Source: Bacteroidales bacterium (GTDB taxonomy: Bacteria > Bacteroidota > Bacteroidia > Bacteroidales > Tenuifilaceae). From it: a DNA stretch of 55,399 bases. Positions 403-22,904 of this stretch are shown piece after piece. Within the stretch, counting starts at the first letter, position 1, and every line of letters begins with the position of its first letter. The position numbers were made by a program, and so were the translations under genes. Location: NCBI GenBank assembly GCA_013141385.1, contig JABFRB010000039.1, positions 1-55,399 of the forward strand, in the 5' to 3' direction. Under the pieces are notes generated by a model. It was not told the DNA's origin and searched no databases. It saw nothing but the letters and a program-made list of their open reading frames with translations.

Positions 403-3400
403 TTATGTTGTTATTTTAATAATATTTTCTTGATTATTTAACATCGATAAAAATTGATCTGTTGGGATAACTGCTCCTCCCGAACGATATTTATTATACT
501 CAAGTGTAAATTTAATCCCCTTTCCATTAATTGATATGGCTTTAGGGCCAAAATTGCTAACTTTTATTTCGTATTTAAATGTAAGGGGATAACACATATA
601 ATCAATTGAGGTAAATAGACCATTCAGGGAATTTGGAATAACTGGATCTATTATTGTGTTTCCAAATTCGGTTCGTAGGCCAAGTAAACGGGAAATAATT
701 ATGCCAATATAAATACCTGGCCCACTGGAGTAAACTCTCCATCCACCTCTTAGAGTTAAGCTTCCTGTTTTAATTTCATCGTAATGTTCATCGGCCTCGT
801 AACGGTTTTTGAAAGCAACATCAGAGCTGCTATAATAACAATTTGATTGGCGGATATCCCCACAGGTTACAATATCTCTGTATGCAACAGGATTTGTCTG
901 GCGTAATGCTTTTACAAAATCATCGGCTTTGCCCATAATCGCTAGTGATTCAGCGTATCGAATATGTTCATGTACATACATTAGACCTATTTCACGACCA
1001 AAGAATGTACTACTTTCTGCTCTCTGAAAGATTGTTTGGATGCCCCCTTTGTATTTAAGAGGACGATCCATCAATCTAGCACCATCAGGGCCTTTTAAAT
1101 GTTGCTCAATGATTTCTTGATGTTGAAGTGCTTGCTCTTTTGTAAATATTTCGCTTATAATACCACGATCCATTGGCAGTATGCTGTAGTGTATGCTGGT
1201 TTTGGTATCACTTGGGTGGAGCAGCACGCTGATACTTCGATCTTCTTCAACAAGGCCATAACCCGCTACAACACCATCCTTTATTAAGTGTTTGTTAAAA
1301 TCTGATTTAATCCTTTCACAAATATTTTGTAGGTCTGTTGCCTTTTTAGTATTTCCAACCAGTTCATATACCCTTTGATACTGAGTGAAGGCTTGATAGT
1401 TCATTTCAACTGTCCAACTCGAAATCATGCGTTGCGCTAACTCTTTGCTAACAGGTTGAAGAGAATCGTTCCAGTCGCCACCGCCAAAGGGAACAAACGC
1501 AGTATCAGGAATAAATGAGTTGATTATCATCCGAATAAGTCTGTCTACATGTTCACTAATTGGTTTTTTCTCGACTTCAGTGTTATTTTTTTCCTGATAG
1601 AAGGGCAAAACTTCATCTAGAATTGTAAGATCTCCAGTTACTTTGATATAGTTGCTAAGCGCAATAATCACCCAATAAACTACATCACCATGAGAATCAC
1701 CTGCTCGAATATTCGAGTAGCTATCGAACATCCACCATTGTGGCCATCCGCCATTTGTATTCTGATTGGAGAATATAATTTGCAGTACTTGTTTGGCAGA
1801 ATCATACTTTTCCATGCACAGTAGTAGGTCAAATGGCCCCTGAGATACATCGCGTGTTCCCCATGCAGCTCCACCAAATTGTTCTAACCCATGCGGTGTT
1901 AGAAAATGGGTGATTGCATTCATTCCAAGCCATGGCAAAATTTCCTGAATAGCCGCTAAATCTGTACTATCACTTTTAAGGGAAAGGTTTAAACATAGAT
2001 CTTTCCAGTTCGATTGAGCATCAAGGCAATCAGCTGCAAATTGTTTGTTGATATCTTTAATCTTGTCAGATTTGGATGGACTACAAACCTCCCCAATAAA
2101 ACTCATGCAAAACTCAGCCGTTTCATCAACATCGAGAACGAAAAATGGGTCACCATGATTTTGGCTATTGGTATAGAGAGTTTCGGCTCCACAAGCATTA
2201 TACCCAAAATTACTGTTCACGATGATTCGGAATTGTGCATGTGGAAATTTGCTAGCAATCAGACTATCTATTTTTGGTTTGAAAACCAAGTCATTAGAAA
2301 CTTTTGTCCAACCATTACTTTCATCGAAATGATGCGTAACAAGCAATTTAACATTTTTCCCGCTAATGACTTTGAAATCGAGGTTGATTCGTGGAGATGT
2401 TTTAGATGTCCATGTACGAACCTGAAAGCAGTAATTGCGATATTTATAAATCCAACGGCAATGGTTAAGGCCGATCTCAAAAGCAGATGGTATGCCAAGT
2501 AAGTATTTACTACCCTCAATCTCAACAAAAATTCTTTGACCTGTTTCAGGCGATTGGTTAAACTGACTAGTGCAGACGGATAGGAAGATATTGAAATTGG
2601 TGTTGCCCTGCGTCAGATGAGAATTAAAAACACCAAAGGCGAACGATGTTGTAGATACAATGTTTTCATCGGGAATATACCCTGCTTTGGCTTGCATAAT
2701 GTGTCCATGTGGGCGGTCGGACATTAATTCTTTGACACGCAACATCACATGGTTATTTGTACCATAAAAGAATGATAATAGCTTTCCGTTTTCTATTTCA
2801 CTATGTCGTCTATCGTTATCAAAAAAGAGTTTGAGATCTTCGTCATCTAAATCATCAACAGGTAGGAGTGGAGAGGTATTGAAAATATTTTTATTGGGAG
2901 CTTGTAATTCAATCGAATTTTGATTAGGAATTTCTGCATTGAACTCCTGCATCAGATTTGGTATTTGCTTTAAATCCAATTCTGATGTTGCGTTAGGATG
3001 ATTTTGTAAATAGGAACCCACAAAAGCACTCTTATGTTTATTGCCAACAAGCAGTTTAAAAGGCTTTTCCTGAATGGCAACTATTGAAGATTCACCAGAA
3101 TATTCGCCTCCCAGTCTATCCGCAAGTAGACCTTCTGGGATTCCCTTTTCACGGAATGATTTGCCAAGAAACTGCATTCCATCTGTACTTGCAGAGTTTG
3201 CCATGATTTTAGAAGCAACCATTAGCCAAGGATTACCAACCGATTCCTTTGTATTCTGCCGACAACAAACTACTGAACCATACTGATAATCTTCAAGAAT
3301 AAGTCGTTCAAGATACTGGCTAACATAGTATTCGTTGACTAAACCGCCTGATATTTGCTTTAGCCCAACATCTTGTACATAAATTATGTCAAGTTCAACA

Positions 3401-3750
3401 TTGCCTGCTGAGATATTTGTAATTTCAATACTCCATTGCCAGCTTAAACTTTTCTGCGAAAATTGAAGAATACAAGTATAATCAAGGCCATCCCAGTTGC
3501 CTTTGGCAATAAAAGCATTTTGTTTAATCTGGAAATGACTATTGCTTTCTGGGCCTAATAGGGCTTTAAATTCAAAGGGATTTGTCCTTTTCCTAAGGTA
3601 AAGGTTTGCTCCCGATTTGGAATATGGGGTTGCAGATTTAAGGCTTATTCTGATAGGATCAACCTCAATATGCTGAATTGATCCGTTTTCTAAGAAATCG
3701 AATGAAAGACCGAGGGCATTTTTGACATTCAGTTTTTTAGATATCGACAT
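403..3750 (-). CDS. GH94 phosphorylase, probable 1,2-beta-oligoglucan phosphorylase
   Basis: The protein has 1115 residues and no signal peptide, so it should act in the cytoplasm. The C-terminal half is a GH94 (alpha/alpha)6 barrel: GGAAWGTRDVSQGP lies at 626-639 and GGGDWND at 756-762, and the family catalytic acid is the Asp of the WND triplet (D762). Cellobiose and chitobiose phosphorylases are about 800 residues. About 1100 residues with a long N-terminal beta region fits the 1,2-beta-oligoglucan phosphorylase group (EC 2.4.1.333, typified by Listeria innocua Lin1839). Such enzymes release alpha-glucose 1-phosphate from beta-1,2-glucooligosaccharides. It is the last gene of a locus with two GH144-type enzymes, which supports this substrate. 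The family call is firm; the exact linkage is inferred from length and context. Confidence 0.85.
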   Translation of the reverse strand: MSISKKLNVKNALGLSFDFLENGSIQHIEVDPIRISLKSATPYSKSGANLYLRKRTNPFEFKALLGPESNSHFQIKQNAFIAKGNWDGLDYTCILQFSQKSLSWQWSIEITNISAGNVELDIIYVQDVGLKQISGGLVNEYYVSQYLERLILEDYQYGSVVCCRQNTKESVGNPWLMVASKIMANSASTDGMQFLGKSFREKGIPEGLLADRLGGEYSGESSIVAIQEKPFKLLVGNKHKSAFVGSYLQNHPNATSELDLKQIPNLMQEFNAEIPNQNSIELQAPNKNIFNTSPLLPVDDLDDEDLKLFFDNDRRHSEIENGKLLSFFYGTNNHVMLRVKELMSDRPHGHIMQAKAGYIPDENIVSTTSFAFGVFNSHLTQGNTNFNIFLSVCTSQFNQSPETGQRIFVEIEGSKYLLGIPSAFEIGLNHCRWIYKYRNYCFQVRTWTSKTSPRINLDFKVISGKNVKLLVTHHFDESNGWTKVSNDLVFKPKIDSLIASKFPHAQFRIIVNSNFGYNACGAETLYTNSQNHGDPFFVLDVDETAEFCMSFIGEVCSPSKSDKIKDINKQFAADCLDAQSNWKDLCLNLSLKSDSTDLAAIQEILPWLGMNAITHFLTPHGLEQFGGAAWGTRDVSQGPFDLLLCMEKYDSAKQVLQIIFSNQNTNGGWPQWWMFDSYSNIRAGDSHGDVVYWVIIALSNYIKVTGDLTILDEVLPFYQEKNNTEVEKKPISEHVDRLIRMIINSFIPDTAFVPFGGGDWNDSLQPVSKELAQRMISSWTVEMNYQAFTQYQRVYELVGNTKKATDLQNICERIKSDFNKHLIKDGVVAGYGLVEEDRSISVLLHPSDTKTSIHYSILPMDRGIISEIFTKEQALQHQEIIEQHLKGPDGARLMDRPLKYKGGIQTIFQRAESSTFFGREIGLMYVHEHIRYAESLAIMGKADDFVKALRQTNPVAYRDIVTCGDIRQSNCYYSSSDVAFKNRYEADEHYDEIKTGSLTLRGGWRVYSSGPGIYIGIIISRLLGLRTEFGNTIIDPVIPNSLNGLFTSIDYMCYPLTFKYEIKVSNFGPKAISINGKGIKFTLEYNKYRSGGAVIPTDQFLSMLNNQENIIKITT

Positions 3751-3957: not shown

Positions 3958-6405
3958 TTAATTCGAGATAATAGCGTTTATTTTAACACTAATAATCATT
4001 TCACTTCTATGTTTATGGCTATAAATGAATGCAATCCGCTTATCATCTGCTACCATTTGAACATCTACTCCAGCAATTGTTGCAGACTTTATTTTTTTCA
4101 CCTGTTTGCCTTCAAAAACAATTTCCCCAGCCAAATCACGATCGCCATACAGGGTAATTTCTAGTTGATCATTCAACTGCTTAACATTTAGAATATCTGA
4201 AGTGCTGTGTAAAATCCTTAACCCATCTGAAATGGGGAGACATATTGGGCTTAAAACGCTATACAGAGCAGGCCACAAAATCTCACCTTTTAGGTAAGGG
4301 ATTGTTATTGATTCGCTACTTTCAGGATGAGTATAGGTTACATTGCCTGTGTGCTCTTCGTTGTAGTAATTTCCAACAAAAAGCATTGCTGAATGTGCAC
4401 TTGTGAAACGTTCCCTAACGTTGATATGATAATTGTTGCTACTTCCTTGTCTTAATTTTGCTGCTGATTTATTCAGGATTGCTTCGTAAACTGGTTTTTG
4501 CCCTTCGGTATCAAATCCGATCCAAGTACCAAGGTGAATTAATGAACCTTTTCCAAGAGGCTTCGAGAAGCCACAAATATCGCCATTAATGGTGCGAGCA
4601 ATAATTTCTGCTCCAGAAAGTGATTTTTCATCATATACAACTTGTGGATTAGCACATTTGATATCTTTCAAATTATATATATCAATCAACGGAGAATCAA
4701 TTGTTACGGTTCTTGATGGGGTAATTGAAAGGGCATCGCGAATTATGGTACATGGTTTTTGCGACATTTCCCGATCAGGTAGATATGGGAAAATAAACGT
4801 ATTACCACTGGCTTTAGTATAGTCAACAATGGTTTGCTGTTCCCTTGCATTCATCTCATCGGTACAGAATGCCCAAACTTGCTTGTATTTAAGCAGAGAA
4901 TCAACGGTAGCCTTATTCAAATCCACCATATCATAGTCGATATTAAGAACCTGAAGAACTTTAAGCAATCCATCGAAATAGGCAGGTCTACGGATGGCAG
5001 AATATGAGAATGTAAGTTCACATTCACTTCCAACAGGCCTCTCAAGTTCAGTTGAATAGTATGGAGGATAAAAAAGAACGCAGACTTCAGCCTTGCGCTT
5101 TGCTTCAACAATAAGGCTTTCGGAGGTATTTATAATTTTGTTCATCCGTTTAACCAGTGGAAAAGCACTGGTCTGCTCACCTTCCGGGGTGAGCGGATTG
5201 AACCAGTAGAATGTTTCTCCTGAATAGCCTTTGTGCCTTGGATTACGACCCTGCGAAAACATGTAGTAGTTCCAACCAACCAAACCATTGGCAACACTTG
5301 CTTTGTAGAAGAGCTCCATTTCACGAGGATTTGTCTCCACGTGATGTTCGCGTGAGCCACATTGGAATTCGGCAGCAAACAGTGGTTTATTGCCCTGCAT
5401 GGCAAGGGTAATATCATTTATAATCCGATCGTCATGTAGGTTACGATACGAAACGAATTCAGGGATATGATCAACACCAAATATTATCTCACTCTTATCT
5501 TCGAAAAGATCTTCGTACATGGTGATATTCACTGGGAATTCATAACCATTTCCATAAATCCAACCAGGAAGATTGTGATACAAAGGAAGGGTTACGCCTC
5601 TTTCCCTTGCCCACTTGGTCAACATTCTTAAATAATCACCATAATAGGTTCTCCAGAAAAGGTGCCATTCGTAATCACGAGCACGGTCGGGTTTCGAGGT
5701 ATATGCATTCCTCCCATCGGGCGGAAGTTCAACGGATGTGAAATCCTTAAAGTTGGTATCCCACAATCTATTCACTTCTGAAATGCTAGAAAATTTTTGC
5801 GATAGGTACGAAATGAATCGATCTTTTACCTCTTCACAGTAGTCAGCCTGATGCGCCAGCCATGAGAAAACGCCTATTTCATTGCAAATTTGCATCATGA
5901 TAATTGGGCCACCATTGGATATTTGGCGTTTGCTGATGAAAGGCATAATCTGATCATACCACAGGGCGACCTTTTCCAGATATATTTTGTTGAAAAGGCT
6001 AACCCCGTCACTTGCAACGATTCCGCCTTTGCTGTTGTGCATTTTAACCTCGTTGTAATACTGATCCATAAACCAATCGGGCAATCCAGCACCACGATAT
6101 TCTGCCAGAATAAATGGCCCTGGTTTAACGATGCAATTCAGCCCATGAGCCTGACATCGTTGTAACCAACCTTGGAGATCTCTTTCTGGGCATGATGACC
6201 CGTCAAAATCAAAAACTTTTTCTTCGTATTCGTGCCACGCCCAAGGAACATAGGTGCTAACGGTGGTCAAACCAGCCTCTTTGGCTGCATCCAAGTGCTT
6301 ATCCCACAGTTCACGCTTTATTCTGAAATAATGTATCTCTCCCGAATTGAGAAATACCTTTTTGTTACTGAGATAAAAGCTATCGTTTTTGATACTAAAA
6401 GTCAT
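3958..6405 (-). CDS. GH35-family protein, possible beta-1,2-glucosyltransferase
   Basis: The 815-residue protein begins directly with the GH35 barrel (SGEIHYFR at 21-28, STYVPWAWHE at 50-59) and has no signal peptide. The acid/base is likely E176 in MQICNEIG and the nucleophile E346 in LFAAEFQCG. A beta-rich C-terminal part follows from about residue 410. Most studied GH35 enzymes are beta-galactosidases, but nothing else here points to galactosides. The Ignavibacterium album GH35 protein IALB_1185, also encoded beside endo-beta-1,2-glucanase homologues, is known to transfer glucosyl units between beta-1,2-glucooligosaccharides. Location between a sugar symporter and a GH94 phosphorylase suggests a cytoplasmic role on the same oligosaccharides. 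The family is clear; the activity is inference. Confidence 0.8.
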   Translation of the reverse strand: MTFSIKNDSFYLSNKKVFLNSGEIHYFRIKRELWDKHLDAAKEAGLTTVSTYVPWAWHEYEEKVFDFDGSSCPERDLQGWLQRCQAHGLNCIVKPGPFILAEYRGAGLPDWFMDQYYNEVKMHNSKGGIVASDGVSLFNKIYLEKVALWYDQIMPFISKRQISNGGPIIMMQICNEIGVFSWLAHQADYCEEVKDRFISYLSQKFSSISEVNRLWDTNFKDFTSVELPPDGRNAYTSKPDRARDYEWHLFWRTYYGDYLRMLTKWARERGVTLPLYHNLPGWIYGNGYEFPVNITMYEDLFEDKSEIIFGVDHIPEFVSYRNLHDDRIINDITLAMQGNKPLFAAEFQCGSREHHVETNPREMELFYKASVANGLVGWNYYMFSQGRNPRHKGYSGETFYWFNPLTPEGEQTSAFPLVKRMNKIINTSESLIVEAKRKAEVCVLFYPPYYSTELERPVGSECELTFSYSAIRRPAYFDGLLKVLQVLNIDYDMVDLNKATVDSLLKYKQVWAFCTDEMNAREQQTIVDYTKASGNTFIFPYLPDREMSQKPCTIIRDALSITPSRTVTIDSPLIDIYNLKDIKCANPQVVYDEKSLSGAEIIARTINGDICGFSKPLGKGSLIHLGTWIGFDTEGQKPVYEAILNKSAAKLRQGSSNNYHINVRERFTSAHSAMLFVGNYYNEEHTGNVTYTHPESSESITIPYLKGEILWPALYSVLSPICLPISDGLRILHSTSDILNVKQLNDQLEITLYGDRDLAGEIVFEGKQVKKIKSATIAGVDVQMVADDKRIAFIYSHKHRSEMIISVKINAIISN

Positions 6406-6423
6406 TCTATTTTTAATTTCTCG

Positions 6424-8532
6424 TTAAACTATTGATGGTTCAATTTCACTATTTTCTCCATTAGAACGTTCCGAATTCCTTTGCTTGAGAAGTTCCTTAA
6501 TTTCATGTGATCGTTTTTCGGTAAGAGAATACTTGAGCACAAAGAAAATAGATACTAAACTCAATAAGAATGGCAGCCCGATCTCTACAATACGCATCAT
6601 CAGAAGAGTATAGGGAGTCTGCTGTGTTAATGGCATAATTTCTTTTTCGATGATTCCAAGATCTTTGTCTAATGAAGCCAATGAGGAAGTGGTCTGGATA
6701 TCGGCAATTCGATCTCTAACACCAGTAATCTCTTGCATGATAAGATTATAGTGCTTATCTGTCTCTTCTTTTTTAATTAATTTGGATTCCAGTGATTTGG
6801 AATTCAAGTGCGAAATGAGTTCAAATGAATTCATCTTGGCCTTCTCAAATTTCGTTTGAAGTGTGAGTGATACTGCTTCATTTGAAAGTCGAATAACGGC
6901 GGAATCAGAAGGCTGAGATCCTAGCGTTTCTAGTTGTGACTGGATGTGTTCAAGCCCAAAGACTGTAGACTTTGTGATAGTTAGCGCATTCTGTAACGCT
7001 GATTTCCTGTCGATTTGATATTTGGCAATATTTTGATTTGATTCGTTTTCCTTCTTAATAGATTCTTTTTCAAGGAAATTCACATATATTTTTGATTCAT
7101 CTAGCGCATCAGCACACTGCTTTTTGGTAGTTTCAAGCAGAGATGCAGTTGTTCCCTTAAAACCATGATCGCCATTCCAGATTTGAACTTTACTCCGAAG
7201 TTCTCTGATATTACCCTGCAAACTATCGACTTTTGTAACCTGTGCTTCGTCAAACATGGTGAAAACGATGAGCGCACCTGCAACAAAACTGGCTAGTGCG
7301 GTTCCCATCTTTATAAACCACCAGAATATTGCATAATAGCTTCCCTCGGAGCGTTTGCCTGTGTTTAGTTCGTCTTCATCACAGATATCGCCTACCATCG
7401 AAGAGCCAAGGGTAAAGAAGAACAGCATACCTGCCGATAGTAAAACTGTAGGTATTACAATTAAGTAAGGATAGTGCGGATTGTAACAAACTATTTTGGA
7501 AAGTTGAGCTAGGCTCATAAGAACCATGGCAATAATAAGGGTATTCCGCTTACCCAATTTAGGACTTATCCAATTGAGAGGGAATACAGCAAGAACTCCT
7601 GTAATAGCCCATACTGTTCCATTGATTCCAAGCATTGTTGCCCCAGCAACTTTATCGCCACCAAAAACATAAAAGATTGGTATATATGAGCCAAGTAGTT
7701 GCACGAAGTTGAAGCCCATTGCAAGTGTGAAAACTGTCAATGTTAGCATTACGAAGTTTCTATTGGAAACTACTAACTTCATATCTTTCCAGAAGTGCGT
7801 TTTTTCCTGTTTCGAAACTTTTTGAAATCCCGGCTCGCGTAATTTGAAAAACCACCAGAAAGAGAGTGGAATAAGAATAGCTGCTATCATCAGGGATACG
7901 TAACGCATTCCATCGGCCTCATTTCCTCCAGGTCCTTTGAAAACCTCCATTGTGGCAATGGCGAAAAGCCAAGGTGTGCTCATGGCAAACAGATTTCCAA
8001 CAAAACTTTTTGCGCTGAATAGGCGTGTTCGAGCATGGTAATCGGTAGTCATCTCCATTCCAAGGGCTCCATGAGGAATCTCGAAGATATTTACAGCAGT
8101 GAAAAATAGAAGAAGTGTAAAAAGAATATAGACTAATTGAAATGCATGGTAGCTCGACTCAGTTGGGAACCATGCTTGCACCATTTCGCCTTTAGGAATC
8201 CACCACATTATCACAAAAGTGATTGAGACCAGAATTCCACCTACAAGCAAATAGGGGCGACGCCGTCCCCAGCGGGTTCTTGTGTTATCTGAAATATGAC
8301 CAATGATAGGGTCGGAGAGGGCATCCCATATTCGAGGGATAATCAGGATGAATCCTAACCAAAAAGCACTCAAACCAAGGCTTATATTGCCCATCAATCC
8401 TACAAGTATTCCAGCTACATTGAAAAGTGCTATTGGAATAATACCTCCGGCACCATAGGCCGCTAGCTGCGTAAAGGGTATATATCCTTCTGCTCTTATG
8501 TTTTGATTCGAACTATTTTTCGGCTCTTTCAT
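6424..8532 (-). CDS. GPH-family sugar:cation symporter with coiled-coil insertion
   Basis: The 702-residue protein is a major-facilitator transporter of the glycoside-pentoside-hexuronide (MelB-like) type, seen in the loop SDPIIGHISDNTRTRWGRRR at 73-92 and about 11 hydrophobic segments up to residue 427. Family members are usually 450-500 residues. Here residues about 428-640 are hydrophilic, charged and heptad-like, and sit between the eleventh segment and a final membrane helix (about 641-667). The tail after that helix is also charged. Gene position, just before the two signal-less enzymes, suggests it brings beta-1,2-glucooligosaccharides or sophorose across the inner membrane. The stop lies 18 nt before the GH35 start codon. 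The transporter call is strong; substrate is inferred. Confidence 0.87.
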   Translation of the reverse strand: MKEPKNSSNQNIRAEGYIPFTQLAAYGAGGIIPIALFNVAGILVGLMGNISLGLSAFWLGFILIIPRIWDALSDPIIGHISDNTRTRWGRRRPYLLVGGILVSITFVIMWWIPKGEMVQAWFPTESSYHAFQLVYILFTLLLFFTAVNIFEIPHGALGMEMTTDYHARTRLFSAKSFVGNLFAMSTPWLFAIATMEVFKGPGGNEADGMRYVSLMIAAILIPLSFWWFFKLREPGFQKVSKQEKTHFWKDMKLVVSNRNFVMLTLTVFTLAMGFNFVQLLGSYIPIFYVFGGDKVAGATMLGINGTVWAITGVLAVFPLNWISPKLGKRNTLIIAMVLMSLAQLSKIVCYNPHYPYLIVIPTVLLSAGMLFFFTLGSSMVGDICDEDELNTGKRSEGSYYAIFWWFIKMGTALASFVAGALIVFTMFDEAQVTKVDSLQGNIRELRSKVQIWNGDHGFKGTTASLLETTKKQCADALDESKIYVNFLEKESIKKENESNQNIAKYQIDRKSALQNALTITKSTVFGLEHIQSQLETLGSQPSDSAVIRLSNEAVSLTLQTKFEKAKMNSFELISHLNSKSLESKLIKKEETDKHYNLIMQEITGVRDRIADIQTTSSLASLDKDLGIIEKEIMPLTQQTPYTLLMMRIVEIGLPFLLSLVSIFFVLKYSLTEKRSHEIKELLKQRNSERSNGENSEIEPSIV

Positions 8533-13222: not shown

Positions 13223-15454
13223 TTAAAATTTAAAATCTCCTTCGATCAAATCCATTGAATTACCACCAACAAGAACTTTAAATTGTCCTGGTTCAGCAAG
13301 GAATTTCATACTTGAATTGTAAAACCTTAAATCATTTTCGGTTATTGAAAAAGAGAATTCTTTTTGCTCGCCTGATTTCAGGAATACTTTTTTAAACCCC
13401 TTAAGCTCTTTAACAGGGCGAGTTACACTACCCACCAGATCCCTGATATAGAATTGAGCAACCTCCTCACCATCATATTTTCCAGTATTTTTCAGAGTAA
13501 AAGTTACTGTTAAAGGTTCAGAATTTTTAATGATTGGTTTACTCAATCTTAAGTTTGAATATTCAAAAGAGGTGTAACTCAAACCGTAACCAAATGGATA
13601 GAGTGGTTCATTTGAAATATCTAAATATTTACTAGTGTATGAATTGGTTGCATTGAAAGGCCTTCCAGTATTTTTAGCACAATAAAAAATAGGCACTTGA
13701 CCAATACTTCGTGGAAATGTCATTACTAATTTTGCCGAAGGGTTATAATCACCACTCAAAACTTCTGCAACTGCATCACCTGCTCTCGTTCCTAAATGCC
13801 CTGTAAAAAGAATTGCGTTTACATTCTTTGATAGCCATTCAATAGTTAAAGGCCTTCCTGCCATAACTATTGCAATTATTGGTTTTCCTGTTTTCACTAG
13901 TTCTTCAATCAATTCCTGTTGACCGCAAGGTAAGCCAATATCAGAACGACTTGCTGCTTCACCACTTTGTTCACGACTTTCTCCTATAGCACAGATTACA
14001 ATATCTGATTTATTTGCAAGTGATTTTGCTAAGTTAAACCCTGATTTATCTTTCCCTTCAAAATCAGCACCTTTTGTAAACTCTATAATTGCTTCGGGGT
14101 ATTTACTCTTTAACCCTTCAATTATAGTAGTTACTTTATTTTTGTCGCCTTGGGCATTCCATGTGCCCAACATATCTTTCTTATTATCAGCTAGTGGACC
14201 TATAAGGGCTATTCTTTTTACTGATTTACCCAGAGGAAGTAATTTATATCCTTTATAATCGGTGTTTTTAAGTAAAACAATAGATTCTTTTGCTGATAAT
14301 AACGCATGATCCAAATGCCGTTTCGAATAGGTAACCTCTTTCTCACGGTTATTGTCGAGATAGAGATACGGATTTGCAAATAATCCCAGATTATATTTAA
14401 GTTTCAGGATTCTTCGTACCGATTCATTAATTTGCTCTACAGATACTTTACCCTCATCGAGGGATTTTTTTAAATAATTGAAGTAAACGGCACCTTGCAT
14501 ATCCATATCTAACCCAGCATTCAAAGCTAATTCTCCTGCTTGTTTTTCGTCTGCTGCATAACCATGGTTTACCATCTCATTTATTGATGTCCAATCAGAA
14601 ACAACAAATCCTTTGAATTCCCATTCGTTTCTTAATATTTGAGTTAGCAGATATTTGTTTCCAGTGCTTGGCACTCCATCCAGTTCATTAAAAGAGCTCA
14701 TTACTGTTGCAGCTCCAGTTTCAATTGCTGCTTTGTAGGGTGGGAGATAGGTTTCACGTAGCACCCTATCCGACATGTCTACAGTATTGTAATCTCTACC
14801 TGCAATAGGTGCACCGTAGGCTGCAAAGTGTTTAACGCAGGCTGCTATAGTAAAAGGATCGTTCAGTTTTTCCCCTTGGTAGCCAATTACTCTTGCTTTA
14901 GCAATCAGAGAAGCAAGGTAGCTATCCTCTCCAGATCCTTCAGCAACTCGTCCCCAGCGTGGATCACGTGCAATATCAACCATTGGGCTAAAAGTCCAAT
15001 TTAAACCAGCGGCACATGCTTCTTCTGCGGATAATCTGGCTGTTTTTTCGATAAGTTCAATATCCCAGCTACAGGCTTCAGCCAAAGGAATAGGAAAAAT
15101 AGTTTTAAATCCATGAATAACATCGTAACCGAATAGCAAGGGTATTCTTAAACGGGTGTTGTTAATTGCTAATTCTTGTAGTTTTCTAACTTGTTCAACT
15201 CCATAGACGTTTAGAATTGCACCAACCCGTCCATCTTTAATATCTTTTTCGTATTCTCTATTAATATTTGGCCCTGTTTGATCCATATTGCCAGCAATCA
15301 AATTGAGTTGACCAATTTTTTCATCTAAAGTCATTAGTGCAAGAATCGAATCGACCTTGGTTTCAAGTTTATCATTATTATTGGTATTCAGTTTTTTACA
15401 CGATATACCGAACAAAATCAAACTAGCAAACAGGATAAGTTTTAGTTTTTTCAT
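13223..15454 (-). CDS. GH3 beta-glucosidase lipoprotein, probably acting on beta-1,2-glucooligosaccharides
   Basis: The 743-residue protein has a lipoprotein signal ending in FGISC (C19). A GH3 N-terminal barrel follows, with WTFSPMVDIARDPRWGR at 153-169, KHF at 208-210 and the nucleophile D287 in GFVVSDWTS. After it come the GH3 C-terminal domain (GESREQSGEAASR region, a likely acid/base loop) and a fibronectin-III-like end domain (FTLKNTGKYDGEEVAQFY). Bacteroides thetaiotaomicron BT_3567, a GH3 enzyme, is known to prefer beta-1,2-glucooligosaccharides, and the GH144 genes on both sides suggest the same role here. The Cys is followed by KKLN and not by acidic residues, so the periplasm is more likely than the surface. 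Confidence 0.9.
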   Translation of the reverse strand: MKKLKLILFASLILFGISCKKLNTNNNDKLETKVDSILALMTLDEKIGQLNLIAGNMDQTGPNINREYEKDIKDGRVGAILNVYGVEQVRKLQELAINNTRLRIPLLFGYDVIHGFKTIFPIPLAEACSWDIELIEKTARLSAEEACAAGLNWTFSPMVDIARDPRWGRVAEGSGEDSYLASLIAKARVIGYQGEKLNDPFTIAACVKHFAAYGAPIAGRDYNTVDMSDRVLRETYLPPYKAAIETGAATVMSSFNELDGVPSTGNKYLLTQILRNEWEFKGFVVSDWTSINEMVNHGYAADEKQAGELALNAGLDMDMQGAVYFNYLKKSLDEGKVSVEQINESVRRILKLKYNLGLFANPYLYLDNNREKEVTYSKRHLDHALLSAKESIVLLKNTDYKGYKLLPLGKSVKRIALIGPLADNKKDMLGTWNAQGDKNKVTTIIEGLKSKYPEAIIEFTKGADFEGKDKSGFNLAKSLANKSDIVICAIGESREQSGEAASRSDIGLPCGQQELIEELVKTGKPIIAIVMAGRPLTIEWLSKNVNAILFTGHLGTRAGDAVAEVLSGDYNPSAKLVMTFPRSIGQVPIFYCAKNTGRPFNATNSYTSKYLDISNEPLYPFGYGLSYTSFEYSNLRLSKPIIKNSEPLTVTFTLKNTGKYDGEEVAQFYIRDLVGSVTRPVKELKGFKKVFLKSGEQKEFSFSITENDLRFYNSSMKFLAEPGQFKVLVGGNSMDLIEGDFKF

Positions 15455-15535: not shown

Positions 15536-17218
15536 TTAGTAGTTAAAACCAAGTTTTGTAAGACCAGCCTTAACCTCTGGAGCCGACATGAAAAGATTCC
15601 AAAGCAATGCTGTACGATAGTTTTCGATCATGCAAACCTCAGGTCCCTGATCAATTGACAAATATGCAGATGACCACCAAGCTTCGTTCAAATCAAAAGA
15701 ATCATAGAAACCATAATCGCCCCAAAGTTTATCACCTAAAGTGTAGTAGAAAAAGCGAATAGCATTCATTGATTGCGTAGGAGTATAAGCAATTGCCGAA
15801 ACTGCTGCGGTTGGCGAAATAACACCTAAATCATTGGTAGGTGAGTGTGCGGCGTAGCCCCATGGGTTGTCGGTAGCTGTTAGCCCCCAGCAATTCTCGC
15901 TATAGCCCATATAGTTTCTTGGATTGGTTTTGCAATATGTGAAGTTGATGAGCGAATGGTTTACATTCTGCTCCCAATAATTAGCATAAATATCACTCAA
16001 ATTCCTTGGATCAAGACCAAGATACGAATACTGACTGAAGAATAGCGATCCACCATAGGGTTCTCCAATTGGAAGTTTAATGTTATAGTAGGTATTGCCA
16101 TTCACTATCGCTCCGCTTTTTGCGTATCCCTGCTGATAAACCTCCTTTGTAATGGGATGTATAGTTGATGTTGCAGCAACTACGTAGGTAATTAGGGTCT
16201 CATTGTAACCTTCTATCCTAAAATTCATTTGCCAACCGTAGGTTGGTGACCAGTGCCAAAAAAGTGAATTCTGTCCACCGTTTCTGAACCAATCGTATTC
16301 AACGGCACTGCAAAGTGCATTGATTCTATTAATTAACTCATTCTCTGTTGCATCACCTGAGTTTAAGTATTGACGCATAGTGATCAACCCTTGAACCATA
16401 TATGATGTTTCGACTAAATCGCCGCCATCATCGTACTGGGTGAAGGGTACAGTTTTGCCAGTGTTTCCGTTTAGCCAATGTGGCCAGGCACCGTGGAAAC
16501 GGTCACAAGTTTCTAGAAATGTCAAAATTTTGTTCAATTGGACAATACCCTGACTACGAGTAATAAAGCCCCGTTCAATCCCGACTATTAGGGACATCAC
16601 TCCAAAGCCTGAACCACCTGTGGTAACTACATCACCAGATATATTTCGTTCTCTAGCCATGCCACAGGATGGATGTGCAAAATCGTAGAAGTATTTGAAT
16701 GTTTGTTGCTGGATTTTTGTTAACAGTTGATCGTCACTAATACGAGGAAACTTATCGATGCTATCGATTTGAGTAATAATTTTTACTTTACTCTCACTGA
16801 CAAGAGAACTTCCTCGTTTTGAAGTAAGTGCAGCTTTTAGGGATAAATTATATCTTGATAGTGAATTTAATTGCGAAAGGACTTGAAGATGTATTATACT
16901 ATCCTTATTTTCAAATGATATAGTTAAAGGTAACGTTATACCGCCCTTTGTGGAAAATATAATTGATTTTTTAACACTAGAAGTATCAACTGGTGCAGAA
17001 AGAATAACTCGGCAATCAAACGATAATGACGCATTATAGTAGTTATAGGTTCCTGTTTGATCATTAACATAAATTTTTGTTATATGAAAATCCTCTGGGG
17101 AGAGAGGGAGATCATCCTTTTTACACGATGTTATAAATACCAATAATATCATAAATGATTTGCATAGAGCCAAACCTAGATTGATATATTTTCTTTTTCT
17201 GCTAATACTTCTATTCAT
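15536..17218 (-). CDS. GH144-type endo-beta-1,2-glucanase, surface lipoprotein
   Basis: I place the start at 17218, giving 560 residues with a lipoprotein signal ending at C32 (FITSCKKDD). A longer frame would start at 17254 in the loop of a hairpin, so it is rejected. After an Ig-like domain (about 42-160), the PF10091/GH144 domain follows with GGSGFGVMSLIVGIERG, RIEGYNETLI (E340) and LSIDQGPEVCMIENYRT. E340 aligns with E214 of the other GH144 protein. The CKKDD start matches the acidic lipoprotein export signals that send Bacteroidota lipoproteins to the cell surface. Being first after SusC, SusD and the lectin, it is the likely depolymerising enzyme that opens the chain outside the cell. 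Confidence 0.85.
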   Translation of the reverse strand: MNRSISRKRKYINLGLALCKSFMILLVFITSCKKDDLPLSPEDFHITKIYVNDQTGTYNYYNASLSFDCRVILSAPVDTSSVKKSIIFSTKGGITLPLTISFENKDSIIHLQVLSQLNSLSRYNLSLKAALTSKRGSSLVSESKVKIITQIDSIDKFPRISDDQLLTKIQQQTFKYFYDFAHPSCGMARERNISGDVVTTGGSGFGVMSLIVGIERGFITRSQGIVQLNKILTFLETCDRFHGAWPHWLNGNTGKTVPFTQYDDGGDLVETSYMVQGLITMRQYLNSGDATENELINRINALCSAVEYDWFRNGGQNSLFWHWSPTYGWQMNFRIEGYNETLITYVVAATSTIHPITKEVYQQGYAKSGAIVNGNTYYNIKLPIGEPYGGSLFFSQYSYLGLDPRNLSDIYANYWEQNVNHSLINFTYCKTNPRNYMGYSENCWGLTATDNPWGYAAHSPTNDLGVISPTAAVSAIAYTPTQSMNAIRFFYYTLGDKLWGDYGFYDSFDLNEAWWSSAYLSIDQGPEVCMIENYRTALLWNLFMSAPEVKAGLTKLGFNY

Positions 17219-17235
17219 AGCTAATAAGGTTTGAT

Positions 17236-17268
17236 TAAAAGGGCTTAGAAACATTCTAAGCCCTTTTA
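17236..17268 (-). terminator. Perfect hairpin between capture genes and enzyme genes
   Basis: The arms 17236-17250 and 17254-17268 form a perfect 15-bp stem around a 3-nt loop (aca). Read on the minus strand it lies 75 nt after the LamG gene stop and 18 nt before the GH144 start, and ends in a short T-run (tttta). It looks like an intrinsic terminator or attenuator that lowers transcription of the downstream enzymes relative to susCD. Confidence 0.75.
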
Positions 17269-17343: not shown

Positions 17344-18246
17344 TTATCTGCCTGCAAGACCTAGGTTATACAAAGCAGAAACTTCGGCTTGAGAAAGAGT
17401 TGTGCTAAAAACACGAGCATCATCAATTGATGCTGTTGCCCAAGGAGCCCATGTTTGTTGCGCTGGTGCGCCTGCGAATCCAATATCACTAGATGCTATG
17501 CTTCCGAATACTGCTTGAACAGGTACTGCCATAATTTCTTCGGCTGTTGTACCTCTATCATTCCATGCTCCGCATGAAACAGCATTTCCGTAAATTAGGA
17601 ATTGATGTGTACTTGCATTCCATGTCATTACATAATGTGACCATACTTTTGCTCCCATAAACCAAGCACCATTTCCAGCATCATTCAATTGTGCCACATT
17701 ATCCTGCAAACTATTACCACCACCAACTGGGTGAGTGTTAAGTAAATTCTTTAACTCAAGAGTATCTGATGATGGAAGGTGACGAGATGTTTCTGCGTTT
17801 GCCATTATATCGCCCCAAATATCGGTAGTACCTGTTGGGATAATAGCGAAAAATGAAGTAAATCCAGCGTCAGCAGTTTTTTTATTACCAGATACTTTAA
17901 CCCATAAACTAACAGAGAAATTGTTTAACGCATTAGCCGTGTTAATGTTAGCAATGCCAGGGAAAACTATTGCTCCTTTTGTTAGTTTTAAAGCTTTACC
18001 AATTTGACCTGCCTCAAAACCATAAGTACCATACTTATTTGATGGAGCAGTAGCAGAAATAGCTTCATTGTAGGTATCATCAAAGGTCCAATGAGCTTTA
18101 AGGTAGGTTGAAGCTACCTGATTAGAATTGTCGTAGCCATTAATTTGAGGAAGTTTATCATCCTTCTTGCAAGAGTTAATGGTAACTATTCCTAGTATCA
18201 TTAAAGCTGAAACTAAGAATAACGAAATCTTTGTAATCTTTTTCAT
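17344..18246 (-). CDS. LamG/concanavalin-like surface glycan-binding lipoprotein
   Basis: The 300-residue protein has a lipoprotein signal ending at C26 (INSCKKDD), again an acidic surface-export start. Residues about 48-300 form one LamG/ConA-like jelly roll, seen in LKAHWTFDDTYNEA, the GYGFEAGQIGKALKL-like strand run, ALNNFSVSLWVKV and the closing SIDDARVFSTTLSQAEVSAL. The SusE/SusF position right after SusD suggests it binds the polysaccharide at the cell surface. No catalytic residues are apparent. The function is inferred from the fold and gene order; a structural role is possible. Confidence 0.75.
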   Translation of the reverse strand: MKKITKISLFLVSALMILGIVTINSCKKDDKLPQINGYDNSNQVASTYLKAHWTFDDTYNEAISATAPSNKYGTYGFEAGQIGKALKLTKGAIVFPGIANINTANALNNFSVSLWVKVSGNKKTADAGFTSFFAIIPTGTTDIWGDIMANAETSRHLPSSDTLELKNLLNTHPVGGGNSLQDNVAQLNDAGNGAWFMGAKVWSHYVMTWNASTHQFLIYGNAVSCGAWNDRGTTAEEIMAVPVQAVFGSIASSDIGFAGAPAQQTWAPWATASIDDARVFSTTLSQAEVSALYNLGLAGR

Positions 18247-18326: not shown

Positions 18327-19820
18327 TTAATAACCGTAATTTTGGGTAAGCTTTCCTCCGCTGAGCTGGATTTGTGAATTTGGAATTGGCAGCAGTTCAT
18401 GAGTACCTGCCACAAAATGTTTACCTACCGCATTCAGAACCTGACTGGCTCTTCCTTGTCGAACGAGATCCCAAAATCTATCATGTTCAAGAGCTAATTC
18501 AAGTCTACGCTCCTTCCAAATTGCATCTAAGGTTGGAGCTACATCAAGTAAACCTGCACGCTGGCGGATCAGATGTAAAGGAGTACTTACATCTCCTCCA
18601 ACATGGTAGGCTGCCTCAGCGTTCATAAGGAGTACATCAGCATAGCGCAGAATTTTTATATTCTTGGGTCTATCCTTGTCATCAGTACTGGTAAAGATCT
18701 CCTTAGTGGCACTGGCGTAAGCTTTGTAGTTATAGTAAAGACTTTGTACTGAATCTTTACTTGGAATCCTGAATCCATCCCAAAGAATGGTTCCTTTATG
18801 TGTACCAGAATTATCAATAAAAATGATAGTAGCATCTTTTCGTTTGTCGCCGGGTTCATAAGCATTGATAAGGTTAGTGGTAGGAGTACAGAATCCCCAA
18901 CCTAGATCGTTCCAACCACCCATTCCTCCAACTCTTACACCTTGACTAACGGTATAGTTACTTACTCCAAGATTGGAATTATTGTAAGAACCAGTTTCTA
19001 TTTCAAAAATGGATTCATTGCAATTGTCACCTGCCTGTCGCCAAAGTATTGAATAGTCAACAAGTCCATATTTAGCTGAAAGTATGACATCCTGAGTAAG
19101 ATCGTATACTTTCTGCCAATCTTGGAGATACATATAAACCTTTGCTAGCATTGATTCAGCGGCTCCTTTATTAGCATGACCAACAGGATAGGCTGATTTT
19201 AGCGGTAGATTATCTACTGCAAACTGTAAATCAGAAACAATTGAATCGTAAACAATCTGCTTATCGGCTCGGGTTTGAAATGCTGGATCATTATTGGCAT
19301 CAGTTTGATTTTTTGGAACGCGCATTACTAAAGGAACATCACCATACATCCTTACAAGATTGAAGTATAAATAACCTCTTAAGAACCTTACTTCTCCAAT
19401 CAACCTATTTTTGGTTTGGCTAGCAATATTTGCTGTACTTAATGCCAGCAATGCCTGATTAGCTGTACCAATGGCATTATAATGACCACTCCAAAGGGTT
19501 TCGGCAAATTTATTTGTTGCTGTGAGATTGAAATCATCAATGTCGCCTACAGGAACTTTCTGATCATCAAGAGTGCTTCCTTTGTCGGCATCGTCCGATG
19601 CAATATCGGTGACCGAAACAAAGGCAAACCCATGAACATCACCATTTCCCCATGAATCACCTTGTAATAAGCTATTGTAGGTTCCTGTGACCAGTTTCTG
19701 AGCTAAATCGGGGTCGGATGAAGTGGTTGCTCCTCCCTGAATTGGTACATCTAGAAAAGATTCTGAACATGATATTAGCACAATTGCTATCAGAAAAAGT
19801 GAAATATAGAGTGTTTTCAT
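18327..19820 (-). CDS. susD: SusD/RagB-type glycan-binding outer-membrane lipoprotein
   Basis: The 497-residue protein has a lipoprotein signal ending at C18 (LISCSESFLD). Typical SusD features follow: FAETLWSGHYNAIGTANQAL, the TPR-like LIGEVRFLRGYLYFNLVRMY segment and the C-terminal ERRLELALEHDRFWDLVR motif. SusD forms the lid of the SusC channel and binds oligosaccharide at the cell surface. It starts 18 nt after the SusC stop, so the two are co-transcribed. Confidence 0.95.
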   Translation of the reverse strand: MKTLYISLFLIAIVLISCSESFLDVPIQGGATTSSDPDLAQKLVTGTYNSLLQGDSWGNGDVHGFAFVSVTDIASDDADKGSTLDDQKVPVGDIDDFNLTATNKFAETLWSGHYNAIGTANQALLALSTANIASQTKNRLIGEVRFLRGYLYFNLVRMYGDVPLVMRVPKNQTDANNDPAFQTRADKQIVYDSIVSDLQFAVDNLPLKSAYPVGHANKGAAESMLAKVYMYLQDWQKVYDLTQDVILSAKYGLVDYSILWRQAGDNCNESIFEIETGSYNNSNLGVSNYTVSQGVRVGGMGGWNDLGWGFCTPTTNLINAYEPGDKRKDATIIFIDNSGTHKGTILWDGFRIPSKDSVQSLYYNYKAYASATKEIFTSTDDKDRPKNIKILRYADVLLMNAEAAYHVGGDVSTPLHLIRQRAGLLDVAPTLDAIWKERRLELALEHDRFWDLVRQGRASQVLNAVGKHFVAGTHELLPIPNSQIQLSGGKLTQNYGY

Positions 19821-19838
19821 AATTCTATCGATTTAAGG

Positions 19839-22800
19839 TTAAAAATTAAGATTTATCCCTAAGGCAATTGTCCGTGTAGTAGGGTAGGTACTCAATTCAA
19901 TACCTGAATCTAAAGGACTTCCGGGTAATTCGGAGGTAAAGCCAGAATATTTTTTGAGTGTCAACAAATTCTGTGATGTCACATAAACTCGTAGACTACT
20001 AATATTTAATTTCTTTAGGAAAGGATCTGGAAAAGTGTAGCCAACTGTTAGGTTATTTATTCTATAGAAATCTCCTGATTCCACGAAGTAATCGGAAGCT
20101 AATAGGTTACCTGTGTTTGCGCCCGGTTGTGTTTGACTTGGATTTTGACTTCCATTCCAGCGGTTATAAACCAGAGCCGATTCAATGTTATCTTTTCCGT
20201 TTATTCTAATAGCTCGTTTTCCATTATACACCTTGTTCCCTACATTTCCGTAAATATCCATACTGAAGTCCCATTTCCTGTAATAAACATTGATATTTAC
20301 TCCGAAATATGCTTTGGGTTGATAGGAGCCAGCAAAATCACGGTCTTTGTCATCAATTTTACCATCATCATTCTTATCCCAATATTTAAATCCACCAGGC
20401 TTTGCTGTAGGCTGAATAATTGTACCATCGCTACTTTTATAATTTAAAATTTCAGGATCGTCCTGGAAAACACCAAGAACCTTAAGAACATAGAAACTTC
20501 CAATTGCATGGCTATTATCCGTTAAGGTGGTAAATCCTTGAGCTGCGCCAATATTACCTCCCCAAATAGGTTCGCCTCCATTTAATCCCACAACTTTGTT
20601 TTTGTTCAGTGTTACATTGGCTCCAATGCTGTATGATAGGTTTTTGTTCACATTGCTTTTCCATTTCAACATCACTTCAACACCTGTATTTTGTATGGAT
20701 GTTGCATTGGTTAAGATCTGATGGTCGGCATCGCCAACGGTAGATGGAATGTTTACATTAATTAGGGCATTATCTACCTTTTTATTGTAGTAATTCAATT
20801 CGCCACTTAGTTTATTTTCTAACATTCCAAATTCGAGGGCAAAGTCATACTCTGCTGTGCTTTCCCATTTAATGTTAGGATCCTTTATTTGATTTATTTG
20901 ACTCCCATTCGAAGCACCCGATGAGATACCACTGAAAGGATATGCTAGGTTAGGTATAACAGTATTAGTATACGCATCGGTTGAGATTTGATCGTTTCCA
21001 ACTACACCCCAACTTGCACGTACTCGAAGCACGTCAAATAGGTGTTGAGATTTCATAAAACCCTCTTTATTGATATTCCATGCTAGGCCAACTGAAGGGA
21101 ATGTACCCCATCTATTTTTCTTAGGAAAACGGGAACTTCCATCACGCCTTAAAGTTGCAGTCAGCATATAGCGGTCGTTATAACTATAATTCAGACGACT
21201 CATGTATGAATTCCTTGTCCAAATATCTCCTTTACCATCATTCTGGGAACTATTGGCAAGTCCATTGTACAAATACCAAAGGTCAGAATCTGCCGGAACA
21301 TCTTTTCTACTTCCGCTAAGCCAAGTTTCCTGAAATTTTTCAGCAGTTGTTCCAACCATCAACTTGAAATCGTGTTTTCCAAATTTTTCCGAAAAAGTGA
21401 AGTAATTATCCCAAACCCATTTAAAATTTTGAACATTTTTATTTGATAGATAGCTAACGGAATTCAGCTGATTCCCACCAGCAACATCGAAAGTACTTTC
21501 ATCGTTAAGAAACTTGTAATCATATAATCTTGCTTGTCGGAATAATATATCTGTACCGATACTTGAGTGGTAACTTAGGAATGAAAAGGGATTTATATCT
21601 AGATACCCAGCCGCTTGAATACGATTCGCTGCCACTCTAACTCTATTGTTCTCAATATCAAGCAATGGATTACCTACTTGACCATTAAAAGCAGAAACGT
21701 TGCCGTATTTATCTCCTACTTTAGGAGATATTATGGGAGCAGCCCGATAGGCATCGTTAAAAGCTGACCCAATATTTCCATTTTCATTAATATCCAAATT
21801 ATTGAACCCATTCTCATTAATGGCATTAGCATAGGATGTTTGAAATCCTGTTTTAATGTACTTCGAGATGTTGAAATCGATATTAGAACGTAGAGTTATT
21901 CGTTTGAAGTTATTCTTAAAGACAATTCCCTGATCGTTTAGGTAGCTAGTGCTGAAAAAGTACATTGCTTTTTCGGAGCCACCTGAAATAGAAATATTTT
22001 GACTCTGTTCGAAGGCATTTCGTAGAATGGTTTTGTACCAGTTAGTGTTAGCCGTTGGACCTGAAATTGCAATTCCAGTAGCTGCTTGATAATAGTTTTT
22101 ATATTCGGAGGCATTAGCCATTTTTACAAGATTTGAAGCCTGCCTTATACCTATGTTAGAATTATAATTGATATTCAGCTTGCCCCCGCTACTGCTTCCT
22201 TTCTTAGTTGTAATTATTATAACGCCATTTGCCCCCCTTGAGCCATAGATTGCCGAAGAGGAGGCATCCTTTAATATGTTCATATCCACAATATCCGAGG
22301 AGTTAACGTTGGTAATATCATCGGTAAGAACTCCATCAACAACGTAGAGTACATGGGTGCCTCCCAGCATTGTTCCCGTTCCCCTTATTCTCATTTGAGG
22401 CGTTGATCCTGGGCTTCCTGAGCTAATGATCTGAACACCTGATACTTTTCCCTGCATAGCCTGTGTTGCAGTTAGTACAGGTTGTTTTGATAATTCTGTT
22501 CCTTTAAGTTGTATAGTTGCCCCGGTAATATCGCTTTTCTTTTGTACTCCATATCCTATTACAACCAACTCATCAATTGCAGTATTTTTGGACTTAAGTG
22601 TTACATTTAATACAGTTTGATTTCCAATTTCGACTTCCTGATCCTCGTACCCTATAAATGAGAAAACAAGAACCTTTTCTTCAAGTTTTAATTCAAGGGA
22701 GTAAAAACCATCGAAATTTGTAACGGTTCCATGATTGGTACCTTTAACAATAACATTTACCCCTGGCAGACTTTCTCCATTATCAGAGGCTTTGACCGTA

Positions 22801-22904
22801 CCCTTAATAATCTGCTGACTTAGGCCTATTGTTGGTAAAGATATTAATAGTAAAGCCGTTAGCAGATACTTAAAGATTTTTCTTATCAAAGATTGTATAT
22901 GCAT
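19839..22904 (-). CDS. susC: SusC/RagA-type TonB-dependent oligosaccharide importer
   Basis: The 1021-residue protein has a signal peptide (1-29), a CarboxypepD_reg-like domain (IIKGTVKASDNGESLPG), the SusC marker DELVVIGYGVQKKSDITG, a plug domain (QAMQGKVSGVQIISSGSPG, then MRIRGTGTM and IYGSRGANGVIIITTKKG) and a beta barrel ending in LGINLNF. There is no N-terminal STN signalling domain, so it is unlikely to signal through an anti-sigma factor. This agrees with the nearby regulator being of another type. It should import beta-1,2-glucan fragments across the outer membrane with TonB energy. It is the first gene of the locus after the regulator. Confidence 0.96.
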   Translation of the reverse strand: MHIQSLIRKIFKYLLTALLLISLPTIGLSQQIIKGTVKASDNGESLPGVNVIVKGTNHGTVTNFDGFYSLELKLEEKVLVFSFIGYEDQEVEIGNQTVLNVTLKSKNTAIDELVVIGYGVQKKSDITGATIQLKGTELSKQPVLTATQAMQGKVSGVQIISSGSPGSTPQMRIRGTGTMLGGTHVLYVVDGVLTDDITNVNSSDIVDMNILKDASSSAIYGSRGANGVIIITTKKGSSSGGKLNINYNSNIGIRQASNLVKMANASEYKNYYQAATGIAISGPTANTNWYKTILRNAFEQSQNISISGGSEKAMYFFSTSYLNDQGIVFKNNFKRITLRSNIDFNISKYIKTGFQTSYANAINENGFNNLDINENGNIGSAFNDAYRAAPIISPKVGDKYGNVSAFNGQVGNPLLDIENNRVRVAANRIQAAGYLDINPFSFLSYHSSIGTDILFRQARLYDYKFLNDESTFDVAGGNQLNSVSYLSNKNVQNFKWVWDNYFTFSEKFGKHDFKLMVGTTAEKFQETWLSGSRKDVPADSDLWYLYNGLANSSQNDGKGDIWTRNSYMSRLNYSYNDRYMLTATLRRDGSSRFPKKNRWGTFPSVGLAWNINKEGFMKSQHLFDVLRVRASWGVVGNDQISTDAYTNTVIPNLAYPFSGISSGASNGSQINQIKDPNIKWESTAEYDFALEFGMLENKLSGELNYYNKKVDNALINVNIPSTVGDADHQILTNATSIQNTGVEVMLKWKSNVNKNLSYSIGANVTLNKNKVVGLNGGEPIWGGNIGAAQGFTTLTDNSHAIGSFYVLKVLGVFQDDPEILNYKSSDGTIIQPTAKPGGFKYWDKNDDGKIDDKDRDFAGSYQPKAYFGVNINVYYRKWDFSMDIYGNVGNKVYNGKRAIRINGKDNIESALVYNRWNGSQNPSQTQPGANTGNLLASDYFVESGDFYRINNLTVGYTFPDPFLKKLNISSLRVYVTSQNLLTLKKYSGFTSELPGSPLDSGIELSTYPTTRTIALGINLNF

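Follow-up and report, generated by a model that had tools for sequence, protein, structure and literature searches.

A Sus-Type Locus Predicted to Serve Beta-1,2-Glucan Utilization in a Bacteroidales Bacterium and a Secreted Protein That Accompanies Its GH144 Enzymes

Known Beta-1,2-Glucan Gene Clusters

Beta-1,2-glucans play roles in bacterial osmoregulation, symbiosis, and virulence, and new enzymes for their breakdown continue to be discovered. The present work concerns ten genes at positions 403-22904 of a 55,399-nucleotide contig (JABFRB010000039.1 of assembly GCA_013141385.1, taken whole and called here the window) from a Bacteroidales bacterium of the family Tenuifilaceae, which are predicted to form a polysaccharide utilization locus (PUL) for beta-1,2-glucan, and in particular one of their products, a 1060-residue secreted protein designated P1060. 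The glycoside hydrolase (GH) families named for beta-1,2-glucans in the accessible parts of the literature are GH1, GH3, GH35, GH94, GH144, GH162, GH186, GH189, and GH192-194 (PMC11842490, PMC12102758, PMC12369401, PMC8861115, PMC5309861).

According to the available part of the paper on the glucosyltransferase IaSGT, the Ignavibacterium album cluster IALB_1177 to 1187 likewise contains two GH144 genes, GH94, and the GH35 glucosyltransferase, and a TonB-dependent transporter is proposed for it, as in the window; it differs by an ABC importer of oligosaccharides, whereas the window has a GPH symporter, a SusCD pair, a LamG-like protein, and a full-length 1,2-beta-oligoglucan phosphorylase (SOGP) (PMC8861115). 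In the same main text, the supplementary cluster figure aside, IALB_1184 and IALB_1186 are not mentioned (PMC8861115). The Listeria innocua cluster Lin1839-1841 combines SOGP and GH3 like the window, but it is a Gram-positive system with an ABC transporter, and GH144, the glucosyltransferase (SGT), and P1060 are not described for it in the accessible portions of the two reports (PMC12369401, PMC8861115). The SGL cluster of Bacteroides thetaiotaomicron with the GH3 enzyme BT_3567 shares with the window the presence of SGL and GH3 in a member of Bacteroidota, while SOGP and SGT, unlike in the window, are not described there in the same portions (PMC8861115, PMC12369401).

Compared with these systems the locus is a variation on known gene clusters, joining Sus-type import to a phosphorylase and a glucosyltransferase which are both rare in the phylum sample described below. 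P1060, for which no activity assignment was found in the literature searched, belongs to a secreted family accompanying GH144, and the activity of one member would fill a gap.

Organization of the Locus

The ten genes all lie on the minus strand with intergenic gaps of 17-207 nt, as follows.

403-3750, minus strand: GH94 phosphorylase of SOGP type, 1115 aa; SOGP_N, SOGP_2nd, Glyco_hydro_94, and SOGP_4th all above cut-off
3958-6405, minus strand: GH35 protein, 815 aa, related to IaSGT and of predicted beta-1,2-glucosyltransferase type; by eye without a signal peptide
6424-8532, minus strand: GPH/MFS_2 symporter, 702 aa; PF13347 E 8e-65
8573-11755, minus strand: P1060, secreted and uncharacterized, 1060 aa; flanked by the genes for the XcSGL-type GH144 and the symporter
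11814-13205, minus strand: GH144 beta-1,2-glucanase of XcSGL type, 463 aa; PF10091 E 2e-77
13223-15454, minus strand: GH3 beta-glucosidase; lipoprotein-like signal ...FGISC
15536-17254, minus strand: GH144 beta-1,2-glucanase of CpSGL type; PF10091 E 2.5e-69, lipoprotein-like signal ...FITSCKKDD
17344-18246, minus strand: LamG-like protein; PF13385 E 4e-5, 24.2 bits (cut-off 27.6), signal ...INSCKKDD
18327-19820, minus strand: SusD homologue; profile match
19839-22904, minus strand: SusC homologue, TonB-dependent transporter; TIGR04056, 807 bits

The SusC-SusD pair and the degradative enzymes thus stand in one operon-like run, as is typical of a Sus-type PUL. An earlier reading of the DNA letters alone (the sequence-only reading) had named the families of nine of these genes, and each of them was found by Pfam and NCBIfam at its place on the one strand, LamG only below its cut-off. 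The same reading had called the locus complete; its nine genes stand as named, but the tenth, at 8573-11755, had been missed and the gene list was incomplete. Rfam and tRNA scans found nothing.

Enzymes Indicating the Beta-1,2 Linkage

Among PDB sequences the GH94 protein matches the structure of LpSOGP (5h3z) over its full length with E 2.3e-174; a cellobiose phosphorylase comes next, at E 7e-9, by which the cellobiose type is ruled out. In the printed alignment all 14 LpSOGP residues compared are kept, namely N138, Y141, Q621, G623, A626, R630, D631, W758, D760, R907, R916, E917, Y922, and H924 (the chain index is the paper's number plus 1; Y1004 and S1005 lie outside the compared part). In the accessible text on LpSOGP, R907 and Y141 are used to explain its beta-1,2 binding mode, and the substrates have a degree of polymerization (DP) of 3 or more (PMC5309861). 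The grouping with cellobiose-type phosphorylases, which the sequence-only reading had named as evidence against itself, was therefore not found, on the basis of residue signatures rather than a tree.

The GH35 protein is, to judge by its sequence, of the beta-1,2-glucosyltransferase type and not a galactosidase, because all 16 IaSGT residues compared are kept, including the catalytic pair E176/E343, the subsite -1 and aglycone residues, and R349, which the available text describes as not conserved in many IaSGT homologues (PMC8861115). Its best PDB match is IaSGT of I. album (7vkw, E 1.4e-153), and the best entry other than IaSGT reaches E 5e-66; by ranks and residues it stands nearer to IaSGT than to GlmA or the galactosidases, and the beta-galactosidase assignment was ruled out by the same gap. 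Its membership in one pathway with the other genes, proposed earlier, is kept with a more definite role, that of a predicted IaSGT-type beta-1,2-glucosyltransferase.

Both GH144 proteins combine PF10091 with residues named for characterized enzymes. The CpSGL-type GH144 (15536-17254) matches 5gzh with E 3e-148, 4gl3 scoring slightly higher, and keeps D135, D139, E142, and E211 of CpSGL (4/4, D400 being outside the comparison). The XcSGL-type GH144 (11814-13205) matches 8xul (XCC2207) with E 1.3e-144 and keeps four SGL-type positions: F286, Y367, the Asp that is the candidate base, and Glu at the E239 position (Gln in the crystallized 8xul chain). XcSGL was assigned to GH144 by its authors, according to the part of their paper available (PMC12102758). 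GH144 structures are the best match for both proteins, so that, by matches and residues rather than a tree, neither appears to fall outside the characterized clade, the other outcome which would have spoken against the initial proposal. In the host genome (5.5 Mb, 53 contigs) no PF10091 match was found beyond these two genes. In the same-genus genome L062 the neighbor genes are 85-96% identical to those of the window and the second GH144 just 41%, which looks like gene replacement; L068 and L069 carry the window's type of second GH144 (67% and 75% identity).

The sequence K-D-D after the lipid-bearing Cys is a mark of surface lipoproteins in Bacteroidota. The signal end CKKDD is common to the CpSGL-type GH144 and the LamG-like protein, and the latter is a probable surface glycan-binding protein by its sequence. 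The lipoprotein-like signal of GH3 is without the K-D-D motif, and therefore this enzyme is placed in the periplasm, with low certainty; it may prefer sophorose. The GPH symporter carries about 200 extra hydrophilic residues (~440-640) between the MFS_2 match and the last membrane span.

It can be supposed that the locus serves some other glycan, such as beta-1,3 or mixed beta-glucan or a galactoside, and is beta-1,2-like in appearance only, since family GH35 consists mostly of galactosidases (PMC8861115) and since laminaribiose is a further substrate of Lin1840 and BT_3567, two GH3 enzymes from beta-1,2-glucan loci (PMC12369401), as stated in the available parts of these papers; however, the residue signatures of SOGP, SGT, and both GH144 proteins independently indicate the same linkage, which makes this supposition scarcely credible.

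Genes Accompanying P1060

P1060 is the steadiest partner of GH144. In 395 genomes of the phylum P1060 was found in 20 and GH144 in 136, and all 20 genomes with P1060 have GH144 (hypergeometric 2e-10, uncorrected for kinship). GH144 was present in 33 of 34 fetched P1060 regions, the exception being a 6.3-kb contig that ends inside P1060. A further set of named loci comprised the best 80 of at least 585 relatives among at least 596 pattern matches in public genome contigs. GH144 accompanies P1060 in 75 of these 80, and in the other five P1060 runs off the contig edge; the second-type GH144 lies at most 400 nt upstream in 73 and the symporter at most 400 nt downstream in 63. Forty-four of the 80 loci measure 20 kb or more; GH144 occurs in all of these 44, GH35 in 40, MFS in 39, GH94 in 37, the first-type GH144 in 36, SusD in 29, SusC in 26, GH3 in 17, the regulator in 13, and LamG in 7, and every one of the 37 loci with GH94 has GH35. 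The recurring order is SusC-SusD-(LamG)-GH144-(GH3)-GH144-P1060-MFS-GH35-GH94.

In 19 regions with far relatives (L042-L060, P1060 36-56% identical) P1060 again stands beside GH144. These regions keep GH144, while SGT, symporter, and SOGP are mostly absent, and therefore no fixed link joins P1060 to the phosphorolytic branch; the idea that it is inseparable from SOGP or SGT was accordingly rejected. Ten neighbor proteins from eight far-relative loci included two GH2 proteins, one ABC solute-binding protein, and four classical GH94 proteins, which may be other beta-1,2-acting phosphorylases:

L047:4782-7157, L050:13761-16196, L042:12960-15431, L055:11482-14964: classical GH94 proteins in P1060 loci, 792-824 aa, one of 1161 aa

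The ABC solute-binding protein is present in L042, where no match to the window's symporter was found. Proteins of 1087 and 1096 aa with no Pfam match lie near P1060 and GH144 at L044:10023-13283 and L114:4063-7353.

The reverse search started from SGT in 164 genomes of one order, read as Ignavibacteria, in which I. album itself is seemingly not included (best match 82%). IaSGT relatives, 66-82% identical over at most 405 residues, were found in 16 genomes; P1060 lies just upstream of SGT in 13 of 15 fetched regions, with about 0.8 kb or less between match ends, and beside it in 14 of the 16 genomes when L048 from the sixteenth is added. In L114 the order is GH144, P1060, SGT, GH144, and then open reading frames (ORFs) of 434, 293, and 270 aa, resembling by size the binding protein and permeases of L042. 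In I. album IALB_1185 is SGT and IALB_1187 the binding protein, according to the part of the paper available (PMC8861115); because the L114 order can be set beside these two genes, the comparison suggests by analogy that in I. album P1060 is encoded by IALB_1184.

In the phylum sample SOGP-type phosphorolysis of beta-1,2-glucan looks uncommon, because SOGP_N was found in 1 of 395 genomes (the host alone), a count which would miss classical GH94 proteins with beta-1,2 activity, and SGT in 3 (E at most 1e-60). The gene set nonetheless recurs in uncultured Bacteroidales and their kin among the named loci.

Domains, Fold, and Candidate Catalytic Residues of P1060

A signal peptide is visible by eye in P1060, and two binding domains follow, one CBM11-like (residues 27-179) and one of CBM32/F5_8C type (about 186-310). 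For the remaining 750 residues no Pfam or NCBIfam model was above cut-off, and against PDB sequences, including a search with a 23-sequence profile, the two binding domains alone matched significantly and the catalytic part did not. AlphaFold2 modeled this remainder as a supersandwich (~311-560), an (alpha/alpha)6 part (~576-955), and a C-terminal beta domain, with mean pLDDT 83.3 and pTM 0.83 for the whole protein and 83.1 and 0.87 for residues 311-1060; on account of these modeled domains the view of P1060 as a carbohydrate-binding protein only was rejected. In the model the protein resembles GH94, GH15, and GH116 by its supersandwich, its (alpha/alpha)6 barrel, and an R-D motif near the barrel start, and it differs from them by 10-13% identity, by the lack of a catalytic Pfam or NCBIfam match above cut-off, and by motifs of its own (QPGSRSYxRSWxRDG, SISHEGY, GDFDxTST, TPYE, and GDMPHTWxGS). 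Most likely P1060 is an inverting glycosidase of beta-1,2-glucan breakdown, perhaps of a new GH family.

Among the 50 Foldseek matches listed, GH94 cellobiose and chitobiose phosphorylases come first, at a TM-score of about 0.6 by query length for the presumed catalytic part and 10-12% identity, and GH116 and GH15 follow. The leading families, GH94 and GH116, both act on beta-glucosides, beta-1,6 glucose branches occur on linear beta-1,2-glucans of several Gram-negative bacteria, as stated in the available part of one paper (PMC11842490), and P1060 is secreted and tied to GH144 rather than to the cytoplasmic genes. It is thus conceivable, if somewhat doubtful, that P1060 is an exo-acting or debranching beta-glycosidase of GH94/GH116-like fold, removing for example beta-1,6 side glucoses; no specificity can be read from TM-scores of about 0.5-0.6 with 10-13% identity, and in place of the GH94 acid motif GDWND P1060 has just N-D, whose D742 aligns with the last Asp of the motif. 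D742 is kept in 37/37 members of the nearer set, but the acidic positions shared by at least 95% of 23 diverse members do not include it.

The same fold matches could indicate a GH94-type glycoside phosphorylase, and a profile comparison with GH94 extends over 544 columns (probability 69, E 4e-5). However, PF17167 has no match in P1060, the acid motif is not conserved in the family, and the histidine of the GH94 motif THAAT aligns with a proline. Glycoside phosphorylases are known as cytoplasmic enzymes, unlike P1060 with its signal peptide, and such an activity is very improbable.

On the GH15 side PF00723 has no match, and the hhalign alignment with a 3-sequence GH15 profile (probability just 36, E 4e-4, 279 columns) sets SYERSWIRDG of P1060 opposite DYRFCWLRDA, and E921 opposite a Glu close to the C-terminus of GH15. 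The R-D pair of GH15 binds glucose at subsite -1, and the Glu is presumably the GH15 general base; the acid candidates would be E753, kept in 22/23 diverse members, and E758, kept in 23/23. Besides E758, acidic positions without any variation in the diverse set of 23 as well as in the nearer set of 37 are, among others, D639, D770, E829, D832, D834, E884, E921, and D935. The fold matches listed on this side include dextran dextrinase and glucodextranase, and the NCBIfam model oligosac_amyl leaves a trace on residues 513-731 (E 2e-8; 33 bits, where the cut-off is 821). Because alpha-1,6-cyclised beta-1,2-glucans exist, as the accessible parts of two papers state (PMC11228985, PMC11842490), P1060 might open such rings by alpha-1,6 action and thereby enable GH144 and SOGP; this is rather unlikely, as GH94 precedes GH15 for P1060 in both fold and profile and the endo-acting GH144 may cut a cyclic glucan ring unaided.

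A GH144-type identity was rejected for lack of sequence matches, neither PF10091 nor PDB sequences of the SGL clan (GH144 and its kin) being found for P1060; the fold matches do not quite exclude it, since the 50 listed contain from this clan only cyclic glucan synthase chains, which hold both an SGL-clan-type and a GH94 domain, and Foldseek does not show which part matched.

In the Creative Commons-licensed PubMed Central literature, searched by titles, abstract starts, and terms, no description of a P1060-like protein was found. The chances are about even that P1060 founds a new GH family of beta-1,2-glucan breakdown, spread across Bacteroidota and overlooked beside the IaSGT gene. In the boldest form of this proposal it may be the missing opener of alpha-1,6-cyclised, or the debrancher of beta-1,6-branched, beta-1,2-glucans.

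Proposed Pathway

The explanation that a Bacteroidota PUL for beta-1,2-glucan, P1060 included, follows the route given here is considered highly probable. On the surface the glucan would be bound and cut by two lipoproteins, the CpSGL-type GH144 and LamG, SusCD would import the fragments, and in the periplasm these would be trimmed by the XcSGL-type GH144, GH3, and secreted P1060. The GPH symporter would pass sophorooligosaccharides to the cytoplasm, where phosphorolysis by SOGP would yield glucose 1-phosphate until sophorose remains, and this sophorose could serve the GH35 glucosyltransferase as donor in a presumed salvage. The SOGP-SGT pair is sensible as a cytoplasmic end-game, because SOGP needs DP 3 or more and sophorose is the donor favored by IaSGT, as the available part of its description states (PMC8861115). 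P1060 would handle a feature of beta-1,2-glucan that is beyond the other enzymes, by an exo cut or at a beta-1,6 branch or alpha-1,6 closure. Families, residue signatures, gene order, and co-occurrence were computed, and from them the cell locations, the substrate, the order of steps, and the chemistry of P1060 are inferred.

The earlier proposal that a single pathway takes beta-1,2-glucan from cleavage at the surface to phosphorolysis in the cytoplasm is supported by the LpSOGP signature and by the GH144 structural matches of both glucanases. That reading had further found it notable that a hydrolytic GH3 and a phosphorolytic GH94 branch stand together; the GH94 branch holds, the GH3 one depends on a presumed periplasmic place and is optional, being found in the 17 loci counted above, 16 of them with GH94. 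The rare elements in the phylum sample are SOGP itself and SGT.

Several observations weigh against this explanation. The best 80 loci are near kin by selection, so that the counts favor close relatives, and some of the regions fetched from genomes are the same contigs as named loci. In the 19 far-relative regions SGT occurs in one (L048) and the symporter in none, the GH94 probe matches two at 20-22%, and no full-length SOGP match was found. Two of the 16 SGT genomes are without P1060 at SGT: in one (L177) the contig is short, and in the other (G148) P1060 was not found in the whole genome. Several conserved loops of P1060 have pLDDT below 50, and both profile comparisons, with GH94 and with GH15, are weak. 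LamG remains below its Pfam cut-off, and for GH3 the PDB entries 3u48, 3u4a, 5tf0, and 9urf rank above 5xxl, which we take to be BT_3567, with Lin1840 lower still.

Regulator and Flanking Genes

Upstream of SusC lies a further gene:

23361-26234, minus strand: candidate locus regulator; propeller and Y_Y_Y domains, a membrane span, a coiled coil, and a LuxR-like helix-turn-helix (HTH)

By its domains the product is a probable regulator of the locus; it has no kinase domains and resembles a one-component regulator tethered to the membrane. The GerE match of its HTH (E 0.05) is below cut-off. Relatives 72-82% identical stand upstream of SusC in L077, L093, L095, L103, and L113. On the same strand, 26550-32860 encodes four GT4-type glycosyltransferases and a MurJ/flippase-like protein, probably a separate polysaccharide synthesis cluster. 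The gene at 37323-38345 encodes a 340-aa protein with no significant Pfam match and a weak GDSL lipase trace (E 0.07), and it adjoins a CBM9-domain protein at 36659-37339.

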